From Candidatus Latescibacterota bacterium (GTDB lineage Bacteria; Latescibacterota; UBA2968), in assembly GCA_022823725.1 (NCBI GenBank), contig JAJEHL010000026.1, positions 62,001 through 126,000 on the forward strand: a stretch of 64,000 bases of DNA. The letters are read 5' to 3'. Positions 16,738 to 60,498 of this stretch are shown here, one piece after another. Position numbers and translations under genes: made by a program. The notes under the pieces were generated by a model. It made no database searches. It saw only the letters and a program-made list of their open reading frames with translations, and was not told where the DNA came from. How positions within the stretch are numbered: position 1 is the first letter of the stretch; each line of letters opens with the position of its first letter.

Positions 16738-17118
16738 AATCAGAATCAGGATTTACAGGATTATAGGATGGACAGGATGAAAGCCTGCCCCTGCATGATT
16801 TTGAGCAGGGGGCGAAAAGCAAAACCTTCTGGATCGCGGCTCAACGGCATACCGCGATGACGGGACGAAGATGTTGTTTATATATAATAAGGAATATAGG
16901 GGAAGAATAAAAGAAAAATCGGGATCAGGATGGGGTGGATGAGAGGATGGACGGGATGAAGGCAAAAGCAAAGGCGAAACCTCTGGATCGCGGCTGACAC
17001 ATTGCCGCGATGACAAACAACAACGACAACCTTCTGGATCGCGGCTAATGCATGTCCCCGTATAAAACACGACGGGGCAGGCTATGCATATATAACAATG
17101 AACATGAGGGAAATCGCG
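16738..17118. repeat. repeat cluster (cagga type, TGCCCCTGC hairpin, three ATCGCGGC elements)
   Basis: Contains two copies of the aatcagga/ggatggacagga tract (16738-16778 and 16918-16958), a TGCCCCTGC/GCAGGGGGC hairpin (about 16788-16814), complete ATCGCGGC palindromes at 16822-16861 and 16978-17014, and an unpaired left half at 17028-17046 followed by a piece of the CCCCGTAT repeat. No gene seen. Confidence 0.85.
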
Positions 17119-18051
17119 TCATACATCCAACGTTTGCTCAAATGCCTCAAGGCTGGACACCTGGATCGCAGCACGAAGCAACTGCTTCAGGCGTTGCAAA
17201 TCGTCAATCGCGGCAATGCGGGCAGACAGGGGATGCGCTTCACTCAGGTCAAATCGAATCTCCAACACGTCGAGAATATCTTCAATGGCACGTTGCCTAC
17301 CCCCTTGCTCAATGCCTTGCTCAAGGCCTTGCTCAAGGCCCTCCTCTCTGGCTTCCGCTCTGCTTTCTTGGGTCAGGGATTGAAAAAGGGATGATTCGCG
17401 GATCAGATCCATGATGCCCTCCTTAAAAATAATATCAGAAATCGTTTCAGACGCATACACCAACTCGCTCAATGCCACCATACCAGCCAGATAATCCGCC
17501 TTGGAAGACCGGGCGATGGGATGCGTCCGAGCCGTGTGAATACACTGTTGCAACCACGCATCTAAGACCATCCCTTCAGGTGGCTTCATCAACGGCGTGA
17601 AAGGAATCAGACCCGATTGCCCCGATTCGAGGACGTGCTCGCCTTCTATCTCAATCAGTCTAATCACCCTGTACTGAATCGCGAATTGGTAGCCGAGATG
17701 CTCCTGGACATAATACCCGGGATCGCGTCGCCCTGCATTGGGACGCAGGTAGATCACGTTGGAAAAGATCGGCAGGCCATGTTGCCGAATAGCATGTCCA
17801 ATATAGCCCGCCATGCGGCGCGGCATGGGTGGATTGGTGCTGTCAGTCGTTTGAAACTCGTTGTGGACCAATACCTCCTCGTCATCGATACGCACGCGAA
17901 TCAGGCTATCGGTCTGGTGTGCTTCAATAGTGAGTTGCTCTGTGTCAATAACTGCGAGAACTTCAACATCCTCGCGTCCGAGGGTGAAGCTGGCAAAGTC
18001 GTCGGGATAAGTTTGAATGAGGTGTTTGGATATTGCATCAAATTCTGCCAT
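17119..18051 (-). CDS. Rpn-like PD-(D/E)XK nuclease, copy 1
   Basis: 310 residues. The start is set at the ATG at 18051 because copy 2 begins with the matching MAEYDSVSKDLIQTYP. The core resembles the recombination-promoting nuclease (Rpn, COG5464) group: HQTDSLIRVRIDDEEVLVHN followed by EFQTTD supplies a plausible D...ExQ active site (about residues 44-68). A helical C-terminus follows. Near residues 245-260 is a short run of EQG repeats encoded by 12-bp DNA units. Rpn proteins cut DNA and raise RecA-independent recombination in E. coli; that activity is inferred here. It shares 5' flanking sequence with copies 2 and 3. Confidence 0.7.
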   Translation of the reverse strand: MAEFDAISKHLIQTYPDDFASFTLGREDVEVLAVIDTEQLTIEAHQTDSLIRVRIDDEEVLVHNEFQTTDSTNPPMPRRMAGYIGHAIRQHGLPIFSNVIYLRPNAGRRDPGYYVQEHLGYQFAIQYRVIRLIEIEGEHVLESGQSGLIPFTPLMKPPEGMVLDAWLQQCIHTARTHPIARSSKADYLAGMVALSELVYASETISDIIFKEGIMDLIRESSLFQSLTQESRAEAREEGLEQGLEQGIEQGGRQRAIEDILDVLEIRFDLSEAHPLSARIAAIDDLQRLKQLLRAAIQVSSLEAFEQTLDV

Positions 18052-18533
18052 GTGAGATGCCTCAGGTCTGAGAGTTGGTCGTATTTTGGACAAACGCAAC
18101 AGTCAGAACTCAAGCAAATATCAGGCCAATGTCACAAAATTGAGTGATAAAAGGAGGCTCGACAGAAACTCAGGCACCTCATTATGCTTTTAATATGCAG
18201 TATTGCGGTCTTATTCACAACTCGAATTTAAGGATAACCACACGCGGAGGAGAGCAAGCGTGGGATGCAAAAGTGTATATTTTGAGCCATGAATGGGCGG
18301 GTATGTGAAAGATATGTACCGCTTGGGCGAAAGGCAAAACCTCTGGATCGCGGCTAACACCCTGCCGCGATGACAAACAACAACGACAGACAAAGCATGC
18401 CCCTGCATGATTTTGAGCAGGGGGCAAAACCTCTGGATCGCGGCTAACGGCACGCCGCGATGACGGACAGGAGCCTGCCCCGTAGTGCCTACCGTATAGA
18501 ATCATTGCCTATACGGGGGCCGTCCCCTACAAA
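18052..18533. repeat. Rpn 5' flank plus repeats
   Basis: 18052-18310 resembles the upstream flank of Rpn copy 2, including gtgtatattttgagcc and gggcgggtatgtgaaagata. It is followed by complete ATCGCGGC palindromes at 18337-18374 and 18427-18464 with a TGCCCCTGC/GCAGGGGGC hairpin between them (about 18398-18425), and a CCGTATAG/CTATACGG hairpin (18492-18516). No gene is seen in this stretch. Confidence 0.8.
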
Positions 18534-20635: not shown

Positions 20636-20865
20636 GACTGCCTCATTTATTTTATTCTAACCTCAATAATATTGAATATAAGAAATATAGGGAAAGAACA
20701 ACAGCAAATACAATCAGGATCAGGATTTACAGAGCCTGCACTGGAATGGTTCTATCCAGTGATGAAAGGATGGACAGGATAACATCAAAATCAAAGGCAA
20801 AACCTCTGGATCGCGGCTGACACATTGCCGCGATGACAAGCAACAACGACAAGCAAAGGCAAAAA
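20636..20865. repeat. repeat cluster (cagga, CACTGGA hairpin, ATCGCGGC)
   Basis: A cagga-type tract (about 20710-20730), a CACTGGA/TCCAGTG hairpin (about 20738-20760) and a complete ATCGCGGC palindrome (20800-20837) precede the end of the next gene. Confidence 0.8.
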
Positions 20866-21651: not shown

Positions 21652-22557
21652 TCATGCATCCAACGTTTGCTCAAATGCCTCAAGATTAGACGCCTGGATC
21701 GCAGCGCGGAGCAACTGCTTCAGGCGTTGCAAATCGTCAATCGCGGCAATGCGAGAAGATAGCGGGTGCGCGTCGCTCAGGTCAAATCGAATTTCCAACA
21801 CTTCGAGAATATCTTCAATGGCACGTTGCCTGCCCCCCTGCTCAATACCTTGCTCAATACCTTGCTCAATACCCAGTTGCTTGATGTATTGTGCAAACGA
21901 CGACTCGCGCATAATAGCATCCATAAGACCCTCCTGTAATAGAATACGATTGATCAGGCTCCGATCATACTCTAACCCACTCAATATCATCAACCGACCC
22001 AAAAAGTCAACCTTTATTGATTCATCCACCCGCAGCGCATTCGTCGCGTCAACACAGTGACGCAACCACGCCTCTGAATCTATTCCAGCAGGACGTTTCA
22101 TCAACGGCACAAACGGAAACAAGCCCGAAGGTCCGCCATCAATAATCTCCTGTCCCTCTATCTCACTCAATCGAATCACTGTGTATTCTACCAAAACGCG
22201 ACGGCCGAGAAAATCCAAGATATAATACCCTGGATCGCGCCGACCTGCATTGCGCCGCAAGTAGATCACACTGGAAGAAACCGGCAGACCATGCTGCTCA
22301 ATCGCACGTATAATATAGCCCGCCATGCGCAGCGGCATAGATGGATCGTCAGTGGTTTGAAACTCGTGATGGATCAATGCCTCCTTGCCCGCAATATGGA
22401 CGCGGATGAGGCTATCGGTATGTCGTGTTTCAACGGTGTTTTGCTCTGTGTCGAGTATGTCCAGGACCTTTACATCGTCCTGTTCAAGTGTGAGTCGGAT
22501 GAAGTCTTTGGGGTAGGTCTGGATGAGATCTTTTGAGACAGAGTCATATTCGGCCAT
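21652..22557 (-). CDS. Rpn-like PD-(D/E)XK nuclease, copy 2
   Basis: 301 residues, starting MAEYDSVSKDLIQTYPKDF. Same architecture as copy 1, with the probable active-site stretch HTDSLIRVHIAGKEALIHH followed by EFQTTD, the RRNAGRRDPGYYI segment, and a helical end almost identical to copy 1 (DDLQRLKQLLRAAIQASNLE). Three IEQG units near residues 232-245 are encoded by 12-bp DNA repeats. The middle is more diverged from copy 1 than the C-terminal 75 residues are, which suggests recent conversion of the 3' end. Likely a recombination-promoting nuclease; not demonstrated. Confidence 0.7.
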   Translation of the reverse strand: MAEYDSVSKDLIQTYPKDFIRLTLEQDDVKVLDILDTEQNTVETRHTDSLIRVHIAGKEALIHHEFQTTDDPSMPLRMAGYIIRAIEQHGLPVSSSVIYLRRNAGRRDPGYYILDFLGRRVLVEYTVIRLSEIEGQEIIDGGPSGLFPFVPLMKRPAGIDSEAWLRHCVDATNALRVDESIKVDFLGRLMILSGLEYDRSLINRILLQEGLMDAIMRESSFAQYIKQLGIEQGIEQGIEQGGRQRAIEDILEVLEIRFDLSDAHPLSSRIAAIDDLQRLKQLLRAAIQASNLEAFEQTLDA

Positions 22558-22969
22558 GTGAGATGCCCTATGTCTGATGGGTGAGTTTTATCAGACACAA
22601 AGCAAATATCGCGCCAACATCACAGAATGGCGCGATAAATTATATGGACAGAAGTTCAAGGACCCGCATCATGCTTTTAATATGCAGTATTGCGCTTTTG
22701 TTCACAACTTGAATTTGTGGATTGTCTGTTGAAGCGGAGGTGAAGGAGGACAAATGTTGGCGGAAAGAGTGTATATTTTGAACGATGAATGGGCGGGTAT
22801 GTGAAAGATATGTACCGCTTGATTAGGTGGCTGTCGCATAAGCAGGGGGCAAAGGCAAAACCTGCTGGATCGCGGCCCCGTATAGAAGCACTACGGGACA
22901 TGCTTAAACCATGCCGCGATGACAACCAACAAGCAAAGGCAAGCTGTATCTGAACCTGTTTTGTTAAAA
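22558..22969. repeat. Rpn 5' flank, hairpins and nested palindrome
   Basis: Upstream of Rpn copy 2 lie two inverted repeats, TCTGAT/ATCAGA (22572-22594) and ATCGCGCCA/TGGCGCGAT (22608-22636, 9-bp perfect arms). The flank shared with copies 1 and 3 follows (about 22755-22820). Then an ATCGCGGC palindrome (22858-22923) carries a CCCCGTAT/TACGGG repeat in its loop. No gene seen. Confidence 0.8.
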
Positions 22970-23717: not shown

Positions 23718-24182
23718 TCATGCATCCAACGTTTGCTCAAATGCCTCAAGATTAGACGCCTGGATCGCAGCACGGAGCAACTGCTTCAGGCGTTGCAAAT
23801 CGTCAATCGCGGCAATGCGAGAGGATAGCGGGTGCGCTTCACGCAGATCAAATCGAATCTCTAATACATCGAGGATCGCTTCTATCGTGCTTCTTCTTTC
23901 ACCTTGCTCAATGCCTTGCTCAATACCTTGCTCAAGGCCTTGCTCAATACCTTGCTCAAGGCCTTCCTCTCTGCCCTCCTCAAGGCCCTCCTCTCTCGCT
24001 TCCTTTCTGCTTTCTTGGGTAAGGGATTGAAAAAGTGATGATTCGCGGATGAGATCCATGATGCCCTCCTTAAAAATAATATCAGAAATCGTTTCAGACG
24101 CATGCACCAACTCGCTTAATGTCACCATACCAGCCAGATAATCCGTCCTATATGACCGGGCGATAGGGCGCGTCCGAGCATG
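23718..24182 (-). pseudogene. Rpn-like nuclease, copy 3, N-terminal half deleted
   Basis: Only the C-terminal half remains, homologous from HARTRPIARSYRTDYLAGM onward to copy 1 and ending with the same DDLQRLKQLLRAAIQASNLE helix. The nuclease core (DSLIRV ... EFQTT) is missing. Immediately upstream (about 24190-24255) lies a remnant of the 5' flank that precedes copies 1 and 2, so an internal deletion joined flank and tail. The EQG/EEG repeat run is the longest of the three copies. A frame stays open into the flank up to 24299, but the product would lack the active site. Confidence 0.75.
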
Positions 24183-24299
24183 GAACGCGCTGGGAGGTAA
24201 GGGTGTACGTTTTGATCTATGGAGGATGGGATCGTGTGAAAAATATGTGCTTTTATCTCCGCGATGACAATCGTCACTTATACAATTATTATAACGCAA

Positions 24300-25258: not shown

Positions 25259-25367
25259 AGGCGAAAACCTCTGGATCGCGGCTACAACCCTGCCGCGATG
25301 ACAACCAACAACGACAAGCAAAGCATGCCCCCCGTATGAAAGCACTACGGGGCAGGCTCTGTATGCT
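25259..25367. repeat. ATCGCGGC palindrome and CCCCGTAT composite
   Basis: A complete palindrome at 25265-25302, then a CCCCCGTAT/TACGGGGC composite (about 25326-25355). The next gene's C-terminus is itself encoded by the adjoining aagcaggggcc repeat. Confidence 0.8.
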
Positions 25368-26661: not shown

Positions 26662-27033
26662 TCCTTAAATATTCTGGATTGCTGGGTTATTGAAAATAAT
26701 ATAGACGGATACAGAGATAAAAAGCAAGCGGAAATAGTCTGTCTCCTTTATTAACGATAAAACCTTCTGGATCGCGGCCCCGTATAGAAAGCACTACGGG
26801 ACATGCTTACACCCTGCCTGCCCCTGTATGCTTTAAGCAGGGGCCGCGATGACGGCGGGGCTCACTTCTCTTTTTTACCTTCTATTAGCAGATAAAACCT
26901 TCTGGATCGCGGCTTACGCTTGCCCCTGTATGCTTGAAGCAGGGGCCCTGCCGCGATGACGGCGGTACCCTCTTCTCCCTTCACACTTCCTACTTCTCCC
27001 TTCACACTTCCCACTTCACACTTCTCCCTTCTC
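26662..27033. repeat. nested palindromes and cacacttc tract
   Basis: 26662-26759 has no feature. 26760-26853 is an ATCGCGGC palindrome whose loop contains a CCCCGTAT/TACGGG element and a TGCCCCTGT/AGCAGGGG element in series. 26895-26960 is another palindrome with one nested hairpin. 26970-27030 is a run of ttcacacttc and cttctccc units. Confidence 0.85.
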
Positions 27034-28563: not shown

Positions 28564-28690
28564 AATATATTCCTGAAATATGTTAGAAAACCGCAAGCAG
28601 TCAGCTAAAAACCTCCTGGATCGCGGCTAACACCCTGCCGCGATGACGACGAGATTCACTTCCTACTTCACACTTCTTACTTCACGCTTC
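28564..28690. repeat. ATCGCGGC palindrome inside ribosomal operon
   Basis: A complete palindrome at 28608-28647 and a cttcctacttcacacttc tract at about 28655-28690 separate rpsR from rplI. Confidence 0.88.
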
Positions 28691-29298: not shown

Positions 29299-29465
29299 AA
29301 ACCATCCCCCATGGACGTGTGGTTCAGAAAACCGTGTTCTGAACGGGGTTAAAAAAGAATAGACGAACCCTGCCCAACCACCCAAAACCTCTGGATTGCG
29401 GCTAAAACCCTGCCGCAATGACGGCTTTCATGTACATTACCTGATTCGTTGATTCGTTGATTCGT
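29299..29465. repeat. rpsF leader hairpin and AT-variant palindrome
   Basis: An inverted repeat TTCAGAA/TTCTGAA lies about 25-45 bp upstream of rpsF (about 29324-29343), possibly part of an S6:S18 control leader, though I cannot confirm that motif. 29385-29422 is a palindrome with the paired ATTGCGGC/GCCGCAAT arms. The end holds three tandem gattcgttg units. Confidence 0.65.
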
Positions 29466-33837: not shown

Positions 33838-34181
33838 AAGCAACCACCGTCTGAAGCGATGTACAACTGGTCGTTTTTCAGACCAGTTCATCAGGATTTT
33901 CAGGATTAGAGGATGAACAGGATAAAAGCCTGCCCCTGCATGGTTTTGAGCAGGGGGCAAAATCAAAGGCAAAAGGCAACCACCGATAAACACAGATTGA
34001 CGCTTTTGGTAAAATATAATACATTCGAGAGACAGGCCAAAAACCTCAAAACCACTGGATCGCGGCTTACACCCTGCCGCGATGACGGGCGAGGCATGCC
34101 TCGCCCCTACGGTTGTTCACCCTTCACAGACCATCTTTTTCATCTGCGTTCATCTGCGTTCATCTGCGGATCACACTTCTC
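33838..34181. repeat. repeat cluster between ispE and TPR gene
   Basis: Holds an ACTGGTC/GACCAGT inverted element (about 33865-33892) that recurs at about 47360-47387, a cagga tract, a TGCCCCTGC/GCAGGGGGC hairpin (about 33930-33958), a complete ATCGCGGC palindrome (34049-34086) directly joined to a GCATGC-centred palindrome (34087-34110), and catctgcg direct repeats up to the gene start. A TATAAT at 34015-34020 has a TTGACG only 12 bp away, too close for a normal promoter. Confidence 0.82.
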
Positions 34182-39694: not shown

Positions 39695-39937
39695 AAAGCG
39701 ATCAAAAAAACCTTCTGGATCGCGGCTTAAACCCTGCCTGCCCCTGTATGCTTAAAGCAGGGGCCGCGATGACAAAAATACGAGCCTGCCCCGTAGTGAT
39801 TCTATACGGGGTCACGCCTGCATGCTTTAAGCAGGCGTCCAGGGGAGGGGTCCGATTTTCGGAACCATCCAACAGGGTCGCGGGTCTAATCGTCGAAAAT
39901 AGAAACTGCATAACCCAACAAAAAAGGAGTACCCGCC
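39695..39937. repeat. nested palindrome and composite repeat
   Basis: 39708-39773 is an ATCGCGGC palindrome with a TGCCCCTGT/AGCAGGGG hairpin in its loop. A CCCCGTA/TACGGGG hairpin and an aagcaggcgtcc piece follow (about 39786-39842). 39843-39920 has no feature; AAGGAG of htrA follows. Confidence 0.85.
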
Positions 39938-42557: not shown

Positions 42558-42743
42558 AGCAGGATTTACAGAGCCTGCACTGGAATGATTCTATCCAGTG
42601 ATTATAGGATGGGCAGGATAAAGGCAAAAACCAGGATCAAAAGCAAAACCTCTGGATCGCGGCTAAAACCCTGCCTGCCCCTGTATGCTTAAAGCAGGGG
42701 CCGCGATGACACTTCATCCTTCATCCTTCACACTTCACTCTTC
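42558..42743. repeat. repeat cluster with nested palindrome
   Basis: Contains a CACTGGA/TCCAGTG hairpin (about 42577-42600), cagga tracts, an ATCGCGGC palindrome with a nested TGCCCCTGT/AGCAGGGG hairpin (42646-42710) and a cttcatcc/cacttc tract. The convergent genes on both sides have no separate terminator that I can see. Confidence 0.85.
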
Positions 42744-47337: not shown

Positions 47338-47739
47338 AAACCTCTGTCTGGAGCGGTGTACAACTGGTCGTTTTCCAGATCAGTTCATCAGGATTTACAG
47401 AGCCTGCACTGGAATGATTCTATCCAGTGATTATAGGATGGACAGGATAAAAACAAAAGCAAAACCTTCTGGATTGCGGCTTACACCCTGCCGCAATGAC
47501 AACCACCGTTCGTCACGCCGGCGAAAGCAGGTGAATAAAGTGATTTATTAACTTCCAAAACCTTCTGGATTGCGGCTCAACATCATGCCTGCCTCCCGTA
47601 TAAAGGCACTACGGGACAGGCTCTGTATGCTTTAAGCAGGGGCCGCAATGACAACCACCGTTCGGCACGCTGGCGAAAGCAGGCGTCCAGTGGATTAAAA
47701 CAATAAACTTATTTGACAAAATATTCAGGAACCTAACCC
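47338..47739. repeat. repeat cluster splitting the his locus
   Basis: Contains an ACTGGTC/GATCAGT inverted element (about 47360-47387), a CACTGGA/TCCAGTG hairpin (about 47408-47431), AT-variant palindromes at 47462-47500 and 47558-47652 (the second with two nested hairpins), and at about 47525-47551 a partial duplicate of the hisG 3' end. An aggaacc sequence precedes the next gene. Confidence 0.85.
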
Positions 47740-51618: not shown

Positions 51619-52680
51619 ATGACCTATCTCAATAACATAAAACCCGAAGTCCGCGCCCTGCACGGGTATCATCTCACGGCGTATGACTGTCCCATCAAGC
51701 TCAACCAGAACGAAAGCCCCTTTGACGTACCCGACAGCTTGAAAGACGACATCTTGCGCGCCGTCCGCGACAAATCCTGGTCGCGCTATCCCGAACCCAT
51801 GCAAATGGACCTCGTCGAAACACTCGCCGACCACGCAGGCGTCCAACCCGAAGGCCTCATCGTCTGCAACGGATCGAACACCCTCGTACAACTCGTCCTC
51901 GGCGTCGTATCTACCCCCGGTGTCCAGGTCGTCATCCCCTCGCCCTCATTCTCCCTTTACGGCCTCTACACCGACATATTCAGCGGACGCATCCTCGACG
52001 TTCCCCTCACACAAAACTACGGCTTCGACATCCCAAAATTATGCGATGCTGCCAGCCAAAAAAACGTGCGCCTCATCATCCTCTGCTCTCCCAACAACCC
52101 CACGGGATGCGCCATCTCGAACGCGGACCTCGACAAACTCCTATCCAGCACCAGCGCCCTCGTCATGGTCGATGAAGCCTACGGCGAATTCTACAACCAG
52201 ACCGCCATAGACCTCTTGCCCAAACACCCCAACCTCATCGTCCTCAAAACCCTCTCCAAAGCATTTGGCGCCGCTGGCATTCGCATCGGATATCTCATCG
52301 CCCATCCCGGCTTGCGCGACGAAATCATCAAAGGCAAAATCCCCTTTGACATCAACATCTTCTCGCATACAGCGGCCATGGCCATCCTCAACCAAAAAGA
52401 CCTCATACAAAAACGCATCGCCTCTATATGCACAGAACGCGAGCGCGTCTTCCAATCCCTCACCAAAATAGACGGCGTCACGCCTTATCCATCACACGCC
52501 AACCTCATCCTCTTTGAAGTCGCCGACCCAGATGCTGTCTTCACTGGCTTGATCGAACAAGGCATACTCATCCGCAACGTCACATCCTATCCCATGCTCG
52601 ACAAAGCACTGCGCGTATCCATCGGCACAGAACGGGAAAATGACCTGTTTTTGGAGGCTCTTAAAAGAACACTGAAATAA
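51619..52680 (+). CDS. hisC: histidinol-phosphate aminotransferase
   Basis: 353 residues from the ATG at 51619; the frame upstream reads repeats. Class I/II PLP aminotransferase: KLNQNESPFDVPDSLKDDIL, NGSNTLVQLVLGVVSTPGVQ, ILCSPNNPTGCAIS, MVDEAYGEF, VLKTLSKAFGAAGIRIGYLI (PLP-binding Lys in SKAFG). It acts on imidazole-acetol phosphate in histidine synthesis. Confidence 0.95.
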   Translation: MTYLNNIKPEVRALHGYHLTAYDCPIKLNQNESPFDVPDSLKDDILRAVRDKSWSRYPEPMQMDLVETLADHAGVQPEGLIVCNGSNTLVQLVLGVVSTPGVQVVIPSPSFSLYGLYTDIFSGRILDVPLTQNYGFDIPKLCDAASQKNVRLIILCSPNNPTGCAISNADLDKLLSSTSALVMVDEAYGEFYNQTAIDLLPKHPNLIVLKTLSKAFGAAGIRIGYLIAHPGLRDEIIKGKIPFDINIFSHTAAMAILNQKDLIQKRIASICTERERVFQSLTKIDGVTPYPSHANLILFEVADPDAVFTGLIEQGILIRNVTSYPMLDKALRVSIGTERENDLFLEALKRTLK

Positions 52681-52788
52681 AAAATCTTCTGGATCGCGGC
52701 TCAACACCATGCCGCGATGACGGCTTTGTTAATGGCCTTGATTGATGCATATTAGCCCCTATCCTTGTACTTTTCATGAGACAAACCC
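52681..52788. repeat. ATCGCGGC palindrome
   Basis: A complete copy at 52682-52721; the remaining 65 bp have no feature beyond a weak GAGA before the next ATG. Confidence 0.85.
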
Positions 52789-54186
52789 ATGCCAAAACCA
52801 ACAGACATAAAAATCAAATCTGTCGCCACTTACTTCCTCCCCGTCCAAACGCGCATCCCCTATCGCTTTGGCACCGAACAACTCGACAGCGTCACCTGCG
52901 TCAGAGTTCGCATCGATGTCGAAGACAGGCTGGGCAACACCGCTTCTGGCTGGGGCGAAACACCCTTGAGCGCGCCCTGGGCATGGCCATCGCCACACCT
53001 CACGTATGCCATCAGAGAAACAGCCATGAAAAACTTCTGCCTCAAAATCGGACGCGCCTGGGCAGATATCGACACAATCGGCCACCCCATCGAAATCGGC
53101 CACATAGTCCAGGAAAACATCCTCCCCGACCTCCTGTCGGACTTCAACGACGAACAGCAAAACACCACAGGCGACATGCCACGCCTATCCGCGCTCGTCT
53201 GTGCCTCGGCCTACGACCTCGCCCTCCACGACGCTTATGGCATGTGCCACAACATCGACATCTACGACACGTACAACGCAGACTTCATGAACGCCGACCT
53301 CTCGCACTACCTCGAATCCCACGACATCGCGTTCGCCGGCCACTATCCCGAAAACTATCTCATCCGCCCGCGACCAAACCGCCTGCCTGCATGGCACGCC
53401 GTAGGCGGCAACGACCTCCTCGACGACGCCGAGCGCACAGGCGATGAACCCGACGACGGCTATCCCGTAGTCCTGCCCGACTGGATACAACGCGACGGCA
53501 TCACCTGCCTCAAAATCAAACTCACCGGACAAGAACCCGGATGGGACTACGACCGCATCGTCCGCATCGGACAAATCGGCATCGAACAAAACGCCATGTG
53601 GTTGTGTACAGACTTCAACTGCACCGTCCAAACCGTCGATTACGTCAACGACATCCTGGACCGCCTCCTCACCGACCACCCGCGCATCTATCAAATGATC
53701 CTCTATGTCGAACAGCCCTTTGCTTATGAACTCTCTGAAAACCCCCTCCCTGTACACAGTATCTCCGCGCGCAAACCCCTCTTCATGGACGAAAGCGCGC
53801 ACGACTGGCGCATCATACGCCTGGGACGGCAACTCGGCTGGACCGGCGTCGCCCTCAAAACCTGCAAAACCCAGACCGGTGCCCTGCTCTCCCTCTGCTG
53901 GGCGCGCGCACACGGCATGACACTCATGGTACAGGACCTCACAAATCCCATGCTCGCGCAAATTCCCCACGCCCTGCTCACCGCGCATGCCGGCACCGTC
54001 ATGGGCTTTGAAACCAACGCCATGCAATTTTATCCCGACGCCTCAATCCCCGAAGCCGCCATACACCCCGGCGTCTATCGCCGACAAAACGGCCACATCG
54101 ACATCGCCACCGTGGAAGGTCCCGGCTTTGGATACAAACACGACGAAATCAACCGCACACTACCCGAACCTGCTGATCAGAATTGA
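52789..54186 (+). CDS. enolase-superfamily (mandelate racemase/MLE-like) enzyme
   Basis: 465 residues, longer than the usual 360-400 because of an insert near residues 160-235 (YNADFMNADLSHYLESHDIA ...). Catalytic positions fit the MLE subgroup: K242 and K244 (TCLKIKLTG), metal ligands D275 (CTDFNCT), E308 (LYVEQPF) and D334 (LFMDESAHD), and K357/K360 (VALKTCKTQ). Members racemise, epimerise or dehydrate carboxylates through an enolate; the substrate is unknown. It sits inside the his cluster between hisC and hisB without an obvious link to histidine. Confidence 0.87.
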   Translation: MPKPTDIKIKSVATYFLPVQTRIPYRFGTEQLDSVTCVRVRIDVEDRLGNTASGWGETPLSAPWAWPSPHLTYAIRETAMKNFCLKIGRAWADIDTIGHPIEIGHIVQENILPDLLSDFNDEQQNTTGDMPRLSALVCASAYDLALHDAYGMCHNIDIYDTYNADFMNADLSHYLESHDIAFAGHYPENYLIRPRPNRLPAWHAVGGNDLLDDAERTGDEPDDGYPVVLPDWIQRDGITCLKIKLTGQEPGWDYDRIVRIGQIGIEQNAMWLCTDFNCTVQTVDYVNDILDRLLTDHPRIYQMILYVEQPFAYELSENPLPVHSISARKPLFMDESAHDWRIIRLGRQLGWTGVALKTCKTQTGALLSLCWARAHGMTLMVQDLTNPMLAQIPHALLTAHAGTVMGFETNAMQFYPDASIPEAAIHPGVYRRQNGHIDIATVEGPGFGYKHDEINRTLPEPADQN

Positions 54187-60380: not shown

Positions 60381-60498
60381 TGGATGACGCGGATGAAAAG
60401 CCTGCCCCTGCATGGTTTTGAGCAGGGGGCAAAAGCAAAACCACTGGATCGCGGCTTACATCCTGCCGCGATGACGGCACAATTATATTGTACGGCAC
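60381..60498. repeat. repeat cluster before PtuA-like gene
   Basis: A TGCCCCTGC/GCAGGGGGC hairpin (about 60401-60430) and a complete ATCGCGGC palindrome (60438-60475). Confidence 0.85.

Follow-up and report, generated by a model that had tools for sequence, protein, structure and literature searches.

Very small hairpin elements nested at near-exact sites in palindromic repeats of a Candidatus Latescibacterota genus

The hairpins SDR1-8 of Nostoc punctiforme (Elhai et al. 2008, Genome Res 18:1484), 21–27 nt in length, are reportedly nested in themselves and in other elements. Insertion of SDR5 of this organism between bases 3 and 4 of HIP1 is stated in a passage of PMC4390886. The CGTC-tagged REPs (Di Nocera et al. 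2013) are characterized by a CGTC (often TGTC) end, a stem of 8–9 bp starting with A, T and an unpaired CCA tail; their loop measures 4–5 nt, with other lengths in a few species, they occur mostly as head-to-head dimers and they have no dedicated transposase (PMC3733652). REPs inserted in other palindromes are represented by GTAG-15 of Anabaena variabilis, GTAG-23 of T. roseum and CGTC-1 of H. neapolitanus (PMC3733652). IS200/IS605 elements rely on a guide-target interaction and transpose through a single strand at the lagging-strand template (PMC3116915, PMC6006769). In these elements and in REPs, the guide for the target or cleavage site is a tetranucleotide lying at the hairpin's 5′ foot (PMC6006769).

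Here we analysed a stretch of 64,000 nt from a Candidatus Latescibacterota bacterium (GenBank assembly GCA_022823725.1, contig JAJEHL010000026.1, positions 62,001 to 126,000; from here: the window). It is part of a 5.3-Mb draft genome (G000), and ten congeners served as comparison set. In a search with ribosomal protein L9, from which records close to the window may have been left out, the nearest relatives belonged to other phyla and reached at most about 51% identity. The window contains a palindrome that acts as host (from here: H) and much smaller hairpins, the guests, which are nested in H and in other repeats. H is similar to the CGTC-tagged REPs in its CGTC/TGTC end, its 8-bp stem beginning with AT and its CCA tail, but it differs in its loop of 9–10 nt instead of 4–5 nt, in being mostly single or head-to-tail rather than arranged in head-to-head dimers, and in receiving guests of other families. 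Because of the loop length, H is described here as resembling the CGTC-tagged REPs and is not filed as a member.

The guests resemble the Nostoc SDRs as very small dispersed hairpins (26–29 nt) that occupy fixed sites and are nested, with family A in family B, a likeness in form for which homology is not claimed. They differ from the SDRs in sequence and lineage and in forming three stem families with a common tag that is linked to the class of site; moreover, their main host is an oriented, CGTC-REP-like palindrome locked to the replication strand. A direct precedent for guest nesting is given by the palindrome-inserted REPs of A. variabilis, T. roseum and H. neapolitanus. However, most of these are REP dimers that have a single palindrome as target, whereas here single 27-nt hairpins, several host types, up to three levels of nesting and empty alleles are found. 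A short hairpin with a conserved short tag at its 5′ foot is also a feature of REPINs/RAYTs and of IS200/IS605 (PMC3116915, PMC6006769). Single-strand mobility of the IS200/IS605 type is marked by the absence of target duplication, an orientation tied to replication and a tag or guide linked to the target; here there is no duplication at the site of guest E, the hosts are strand-locked but guest A is not, tag and site are associated at p < 1e-6, and no enzyme was found. Unlike in REPINs/RAYTs and IS200/IS605, no Y1 gene was found in the complete genome of the congener G007 with its about 290 copies of H, and the guests have no GTAG tag and are much smaller than REPINs; a RAYT flanked by the repeats was not found. 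On our best reading, the guests add a further form to the REP/SDR-type elements, very small mobile DNA that is known but has found little explanation.

The host palindrome H and its guests

Un-nested H is 31–32 nt long and has the sequence TGGATCGCGGC-(loop)-GCCGCGATGAC, as at 28617–28647 (+ strand, 31 nt). Read on the opposite strand it is (C/T)GTC-ATCGCGGC-loop-GCCGCGAT-CCA, and the complementary-strand form (C/T)GTCATCGCGGC occurs with GATGACG and GATGACA about equally frequent. A variant has the stem ATTGCGGC/GCCGCAAT, followed by CCA. Paired changes are seen in the stem, for example T-A in place of C-G at pair 6, as are swaps of the stem between fixed GTCA/TCCA ends. The window contains 29 5′ arms of H, all of them on the + strand, and most copies are single. 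The exact pattern was present in nine of the ten congeners and absent from the other genera tested.

H itself showed no constant insertion boundary. When loci with and without it were compared, the indels measured about 24–131 bp and their ends varied; fixed ends were accordingly rejected, and no transposition mechanism is claimed for H. In G007 (L206, L207 and L167), H and its flanks form tandem arrays with periods of 74, 95 and 117 bp, and such local tandem duplication adds to the copy number. At about 52680-52789 of the window and in the orthologs of G001, G002 and G004, remnants of H were observed in which one arm or the whole hairpin is gone (AAAACCTCGCCGCAATGAC, AAAACCTAATGAC), as if slippage had removed hairpins precisely. 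G008, the most divergent congener, has no H by the exact pattern. In this genome (L231, L232 and L233) a guest of family B lies in the loop of a GTCA(ATTCTGA..TCAGAAT)CCA-type palindrome with the GTCA/TCCAG ends of H and a different stem, ATTCTGA/TCAGAAT. Hence, nesting may be older than H within the genus.

Guests were searched for as hairpins with a GC(A/C/T)TG tag at the 5′ foot, and three stem families were above background. All are 26–29 nt long with the tag directly 5′ of the stem, which reads (C/T)CCCGTA..TACGGG in family A, (C/T)CCCTG..CAGGG in family B and CACTGGA..TCCAGTG in family E. The resulting catalogue comprises 87 guests in stretches adding up to 1.92 Mb from 11 genomes, those of the window and of the congeners, and as some orthologous congener loci are included, the counts are not fully independent. 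No fewer than 41 of the 87 guests are located in H, which makes up about 0.3% of the sampled DNA. Together with the pattern TGGATCGCGGC-N(4-90)-CCGCGATGAC, which matches 104 times in the genome while its reversed control has 0 matches, this excludes chance. Within H only three of some sixty combinations of position and orientation are used: mid-loop (position 1, 21 guests), antisense in the loop (position 2, 8 guests) and the foot of the 3′ arm (position 3, 12 guests), giving 29 guests in the loop and 12 at the foot. The loop motif GCATGRTTTAAGC is common to guests and hosts.

A preliminary description of the window, made from the sequence only, had named six places at which hairpins sit in the loop of other palindromes, and all six are present. 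The H cores measure 58, 86, 58, 58, 58 and 87 nt in coordinate order, and all lie on the + strand. At 22866–22923, guest A (22876–22903, minus strand) occupies position 2. The composite at 26768–26853 (TGGATCGCGGC...GCCGCGATGAC, with exact arms ATCGCGGC/GCCGCGAT and a folding z of -5.2) contains guest A (GCATGTCCCGTA..TACGGGG; 26778–26806, minus strand) antisense in the loop at position 2 and guest B (GCCTGCCCCTG..CAGGGG; 26816–26843, + strand) at position 3; at the matching place G003 has an un-nested H. A guest B with a GCTTG tag (26918–26945) lies at position 1 in 26903–26960, and guests B are found at position 3 in 39716–39773 (39736–39763) and in 42653–42710 (42673–42700). Three levels are reached at 47566–47652, where the H variant ATTGCGGC/GCCGCAAT contains B at position 3 and A (47594–47621, minus strand) in the stem of B; the two guests are not neighbours, A being inside B.

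In each of the six composites the 8-nt host arms pair as exact reverse complements, and the lengths are quantised: 31–32 nt when empty, 27 nt more with one guest and 54 or 55 nt more with two. When the composites were folded, as had been proposed, each of the six surpassed all of its 200 dinucleotide shuffles (z -3.6 to -5.8), and un-nested H likewise folded better than shuffles (z -4.4). The placement of guests in the host loop was borne out insofar as they lie between the arms; at 26768, 39716 and 42653, B is flush with the host 3′ arm and not mid-loop. In these three composites the minimum-energy fold of the single strand keeps the host stem, and the canonical B hairpin is not formed. That guests always sit between the arms is correct for H with two degenerate exceptions, at about 17035-17100 of the window and at L184:11477, each with one host arm missing; it does not extend to hosts B and D, in which the guest interrupts the 3′ arm, nor to the 19 of 87 guests in non-palindromic repeat motifs. 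The degenerate composite at 17035-17100 has retained the H 5′ arm and guest A, while the host 3′ arm is gone. Random guest positions and unpaired host arms, named beforehand as outcomes that would speak against nesting, were both looked for and neither was found.

Insertion sites, tags and empty alleles

Altogether, 83 of the 87 guests are found at nine near-exact site types, a tally given after two hand corrections. Nested in palindromes are 64 of the 87, and the rest of the site-typed guests lie in two other repeat motifs. Besides the three positions in H, the palindromic sites are the interior of the 3′ arm of B (13 guests, A only), two places in palindrome D with 3 guests each, one within its 3′ arm and one at its foot, and GTAG-type palindromes (4 guests). 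The two others are CAG^GAT in a dispersed repeat (10 guests, E only) and AAA^GGCAAAA upstream of H (9 guests).

In the window, guest A is found inside a guest-B element outside any H host at 25330–25357 (minus strand) and, at 39784–39811 (+ strand), at the foot of GTCACGCCTGC..GCAGGCGTCCA, a palindrome of type D. Guest E (GCCTGCACTGGA..TCCAGTG) occupies CAG^GAT of a dispersed non-palindromic repeat at 42573–42600 (+ strand), a site that is empty in G004 and G002, and further CAG^GAT-type sites at 47402–47429 and 20734–20761 (both + strand). A guest B of 29 nt lies at AAAA^GGCAAAA just upstream of H at 60400–60428 (+ strand), with further copies at 97, 16783, 18395 and 33928. Family E (e.g. 42573-42600) and the nest of A in B at 25330 had escaped the preliminary description. 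Deeper nests include A in A on another contig (C20:36903) and an H of G002 with one A guest and one B guest that itself holds another A. Palindromes of the GTAG type (GTAGGGGCGAGGCATGCCTCGCCC and relatives; about 34086-34110 in the window and at congener loci) sometimes contain A or B. At about 42560-42640 of the window and in other intergenic stretches, H is accompanied by dispersed repeats that are not palindromic (TCAGGATTTACAGGATTATAGGATGGACAGGAT..., CACTTCACACTTC... and TCATCTGCGTTCATCTGCGGATC), some of which receive guests.

The target range therefore comprises two loop positions and the 3′-arm foot of H, the arm interior of B and D, and non-palindromic repeats for E and some B. Thus, guests are not confined to loops, and guest E at CAG^GAT outside palindromes indicates that a loop as such is not required. 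Of the earlier proposal that guests target the loop, the targeting of the host holds, supported by empty alleles and near-exact insertion points, but there are several targets besides the loop.

Tag and site are associated. In family A, H-loop guests compared with guests elsewhere number 12:1 for the tag GCATG and 1:21 for GCCTG (p 2e-7); the corresponding ratios in family B are 13:3 and 1:23 (p 6e-7). As it is seen in both A and B, the association crosses stem families, and it suggests that the site itself, rather than the loop as such, may count for insertion. It could in part be due to subfamilies or to target-derived bases. The similarity of the guest tag to the guide tetranucleotide of IS200/IS605 and REPs might be followed up as a lead.

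Orthologous intergenic regions were compared between species by a strict automatic test and by inspection. Empty-site alleles, whose search in related genomes had been proposed, were indeed found, with near-exact insertion points. The strict test yielded at least seven loci with an empty ortholog at 88–97% flank identity, two of them exact to the base. In one of these pairs, an A guest lies in an H loop (C2:139768), and G005 reads CATCGCGGCATGCTTAAAGCCGCGATCCAGTGGGTGA with no mismatch to the joined flanks. In the other, an E guest is present in G007 and the window's genome reads GGATGGACAGGATGAAAAGC at CAG^GAT. At this E site, the cleanest one, a unique 28-nt insert separates CAG from GAT, and the target is not duplicated.

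Further pairs were recognised by inspection. The H at 42653 is filled in the window and un-nested in G002, G004 and G007, while G009 has no H; one filled against three un-nested alleles favours insertion over loss. The H at 39716 is filled in the window and in G006 and un-nested in G007, and the one at 26903 is filled in the window, un-nested in G003 and occupied by a different guest (A in B) in G006. Empty alleles also occur in the window itself: the H at 34056–34086 (+ strand) is un-nested there and in G006 and filled with B in G005 (about 95% flank identity), and the H at 29392 is un-nested in the window and holds A in G006. The B upstream of H at 60400 corresponds to the empty form GATGAAAAGGCAAAA in G007, and the double nest at C2:161820-161879 is likewise un-nested in G007. 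Some of the empty alleles could be precise deletions. Guests at H position 1 replace one host base, which counts against a clean insertion there.

Replication strand and rival explanations

With leading and lagging strand assigned from GC skew alone, H was located on the G-poor strand of the 740-kb contig (50:2 at negative and 6:20 at positive skew; p 2e-11). For H-stem hairpins between GTCA and TCCA at all fetched loci, the rule was obeyed at 211:13. Whichever way the adjacent genes point, it applied equally (19:1 and 26:4), and it is therefore no by-product of transcription. GTAG-type palindromes are strand-locked as well, 15:0 on the large contig and 51:4 in congener loci. Guests B and E mostly keep the strand rule; guests A do not, and their orientation follows the host. 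Since the hosts are oriented and the sites in them fixed, guests may owe their orientation to the host.

This strand rule bears on the alternative raised in the preliminary description, that the modules are assembled by selection into functional folded RNAs such as terminators, mRNA-stabilising or processing signals. The nested copies do fold well as single strands, and the host stems show paired changes and stem swaps. However, any palindrome is expected to fold, un-nested H folds too, and the position-3 composites omit the guest hairpin from their minimum-energy fold. The orientation of hosts follows replication and not genes, with 30 sense and 20 antisense copies beside tandem genes. An Rfam search gave no family match, and no systematic T-run terminator was found at the hosts. 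Orthologous intergenic regions often have no element or another guest. This proposal thus received no support, and we regard it as very improbable. The reading as intrinsic terminators was rejected, there being no consistent T-run after the stems. Somewhat less remote, and still distinctly unlikely, is that composites formed rarely and were then spread or converted whole by recombination between repeats, the guests not inserting by themselves. The loop motifs common to guests and hosts would supply the homology, and H together with its flanks is in places duplicated in tandem (for example G007 721611-721845). But the host flanks differ in 12 of 12 composites of position 3, 7 of 8 of position 2 and 17 of 21 of position 1, one orthologous H can be empty in one species and hold different guests in others, and identical guest families are also found outside H.

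A serious rival, though in our judgement improbable, is polymerase template switching at hairpins of the lagging-strand template, by which neighbouring palindromes would be copied and no transposition enzyme would be needed. It is consistent with strand locking, with the lack of target duplication and with the lack of a conserved transposase or reverse transcriptase, and the apparent precise hairpin losses at locus 52680 point to slippage at these very sites. On the other hand, template switching normally copies nearby sequence, whereas identical guests are dispersed over the genome, and near-exact junctions, a constant unit length and the tag-site association suit an enzyme better.

A candidate mechanism for guest insertion

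The reading that we favour, with a probability of about two in three, is that the guests are discrete, very small mobile hairpins that enter near-exact sites in older repeats, probably as single-stranded DNA, with the tag helping in the choice of target. An existing host palindrome, mainly H, would stand first and the guest would insert later, leading to nesting. The host stem survives because the main guest sites are between the arms or beside them. A guest would enter as a hairpin of single-stranded DNA, the point of entry probably being the lagging-strand template, and the tag would help to choose the target in the manner of the guide tetranucleotide of IS200/IS605 and REPs. The mover would be an enzyme that is neither a Y1 transposase conserved throughout the genus nor a reverse transcriptase common to all members.

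Among 11 congeners, 6 gave a Y1_Tnp match. None was detected in G007 or in G008, which makes a conserved Y1 transposase unlikely, and the idea that a Y1/RAYT transposase moves the guests at present was rejected. Within about 1.5 kb of the only Y1 gene in the window's genome there is no H, A, B or GTAG element. RVT_1 was found in 4 of 11 genomes, and the match in G007 covers only 66 profile positions; with such sporadic occurrence, a reverse transcriptase common to all members was discarded as well. Three paralogous genes on the minus strand of the window (17119-18099, 21652-22557 and 23718-24299) are weakly similar to nucleases of the Rpn family (TIGR01784, under the cut-off). Every congener has many copies like them, and the copy at 23718-24299 is without its N-terminal half and contains a 12-nt tandem repeat. 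As candidates for the enzyme these genes were dismissed: the ncbifam Rpn match is sub-threshold, and relatives are also present in G008, which has no H by the exact pattern, so that they are not specific.

It is conceivable, although we consider it rather doubtful, that the tag of 4–5 nt is an exchangeable address (GCATG for the H loop; GCCTG for CAG^G-type and other sites) and that tag-programmed hairpins are moved via single-stranded DNA by an enzyme of neither the known Y1 nor the RT kind. If true, such hairpins would be among the smallest mobile DNA known. On the insertion reading, nested palindromes would represent layers of insertion and not designed composite RNAs. The gene-less movement of the smallest bacterial repeats, REPs and SDRs, is a long-standing question. 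Filled and empty alleles exact to the base, a tag open to comparison between two stem families and a host-rich complete genome in which no Y1 transposase was found make this question testable by comparative genomics, for which the genus offers at least 11 sequenced species.
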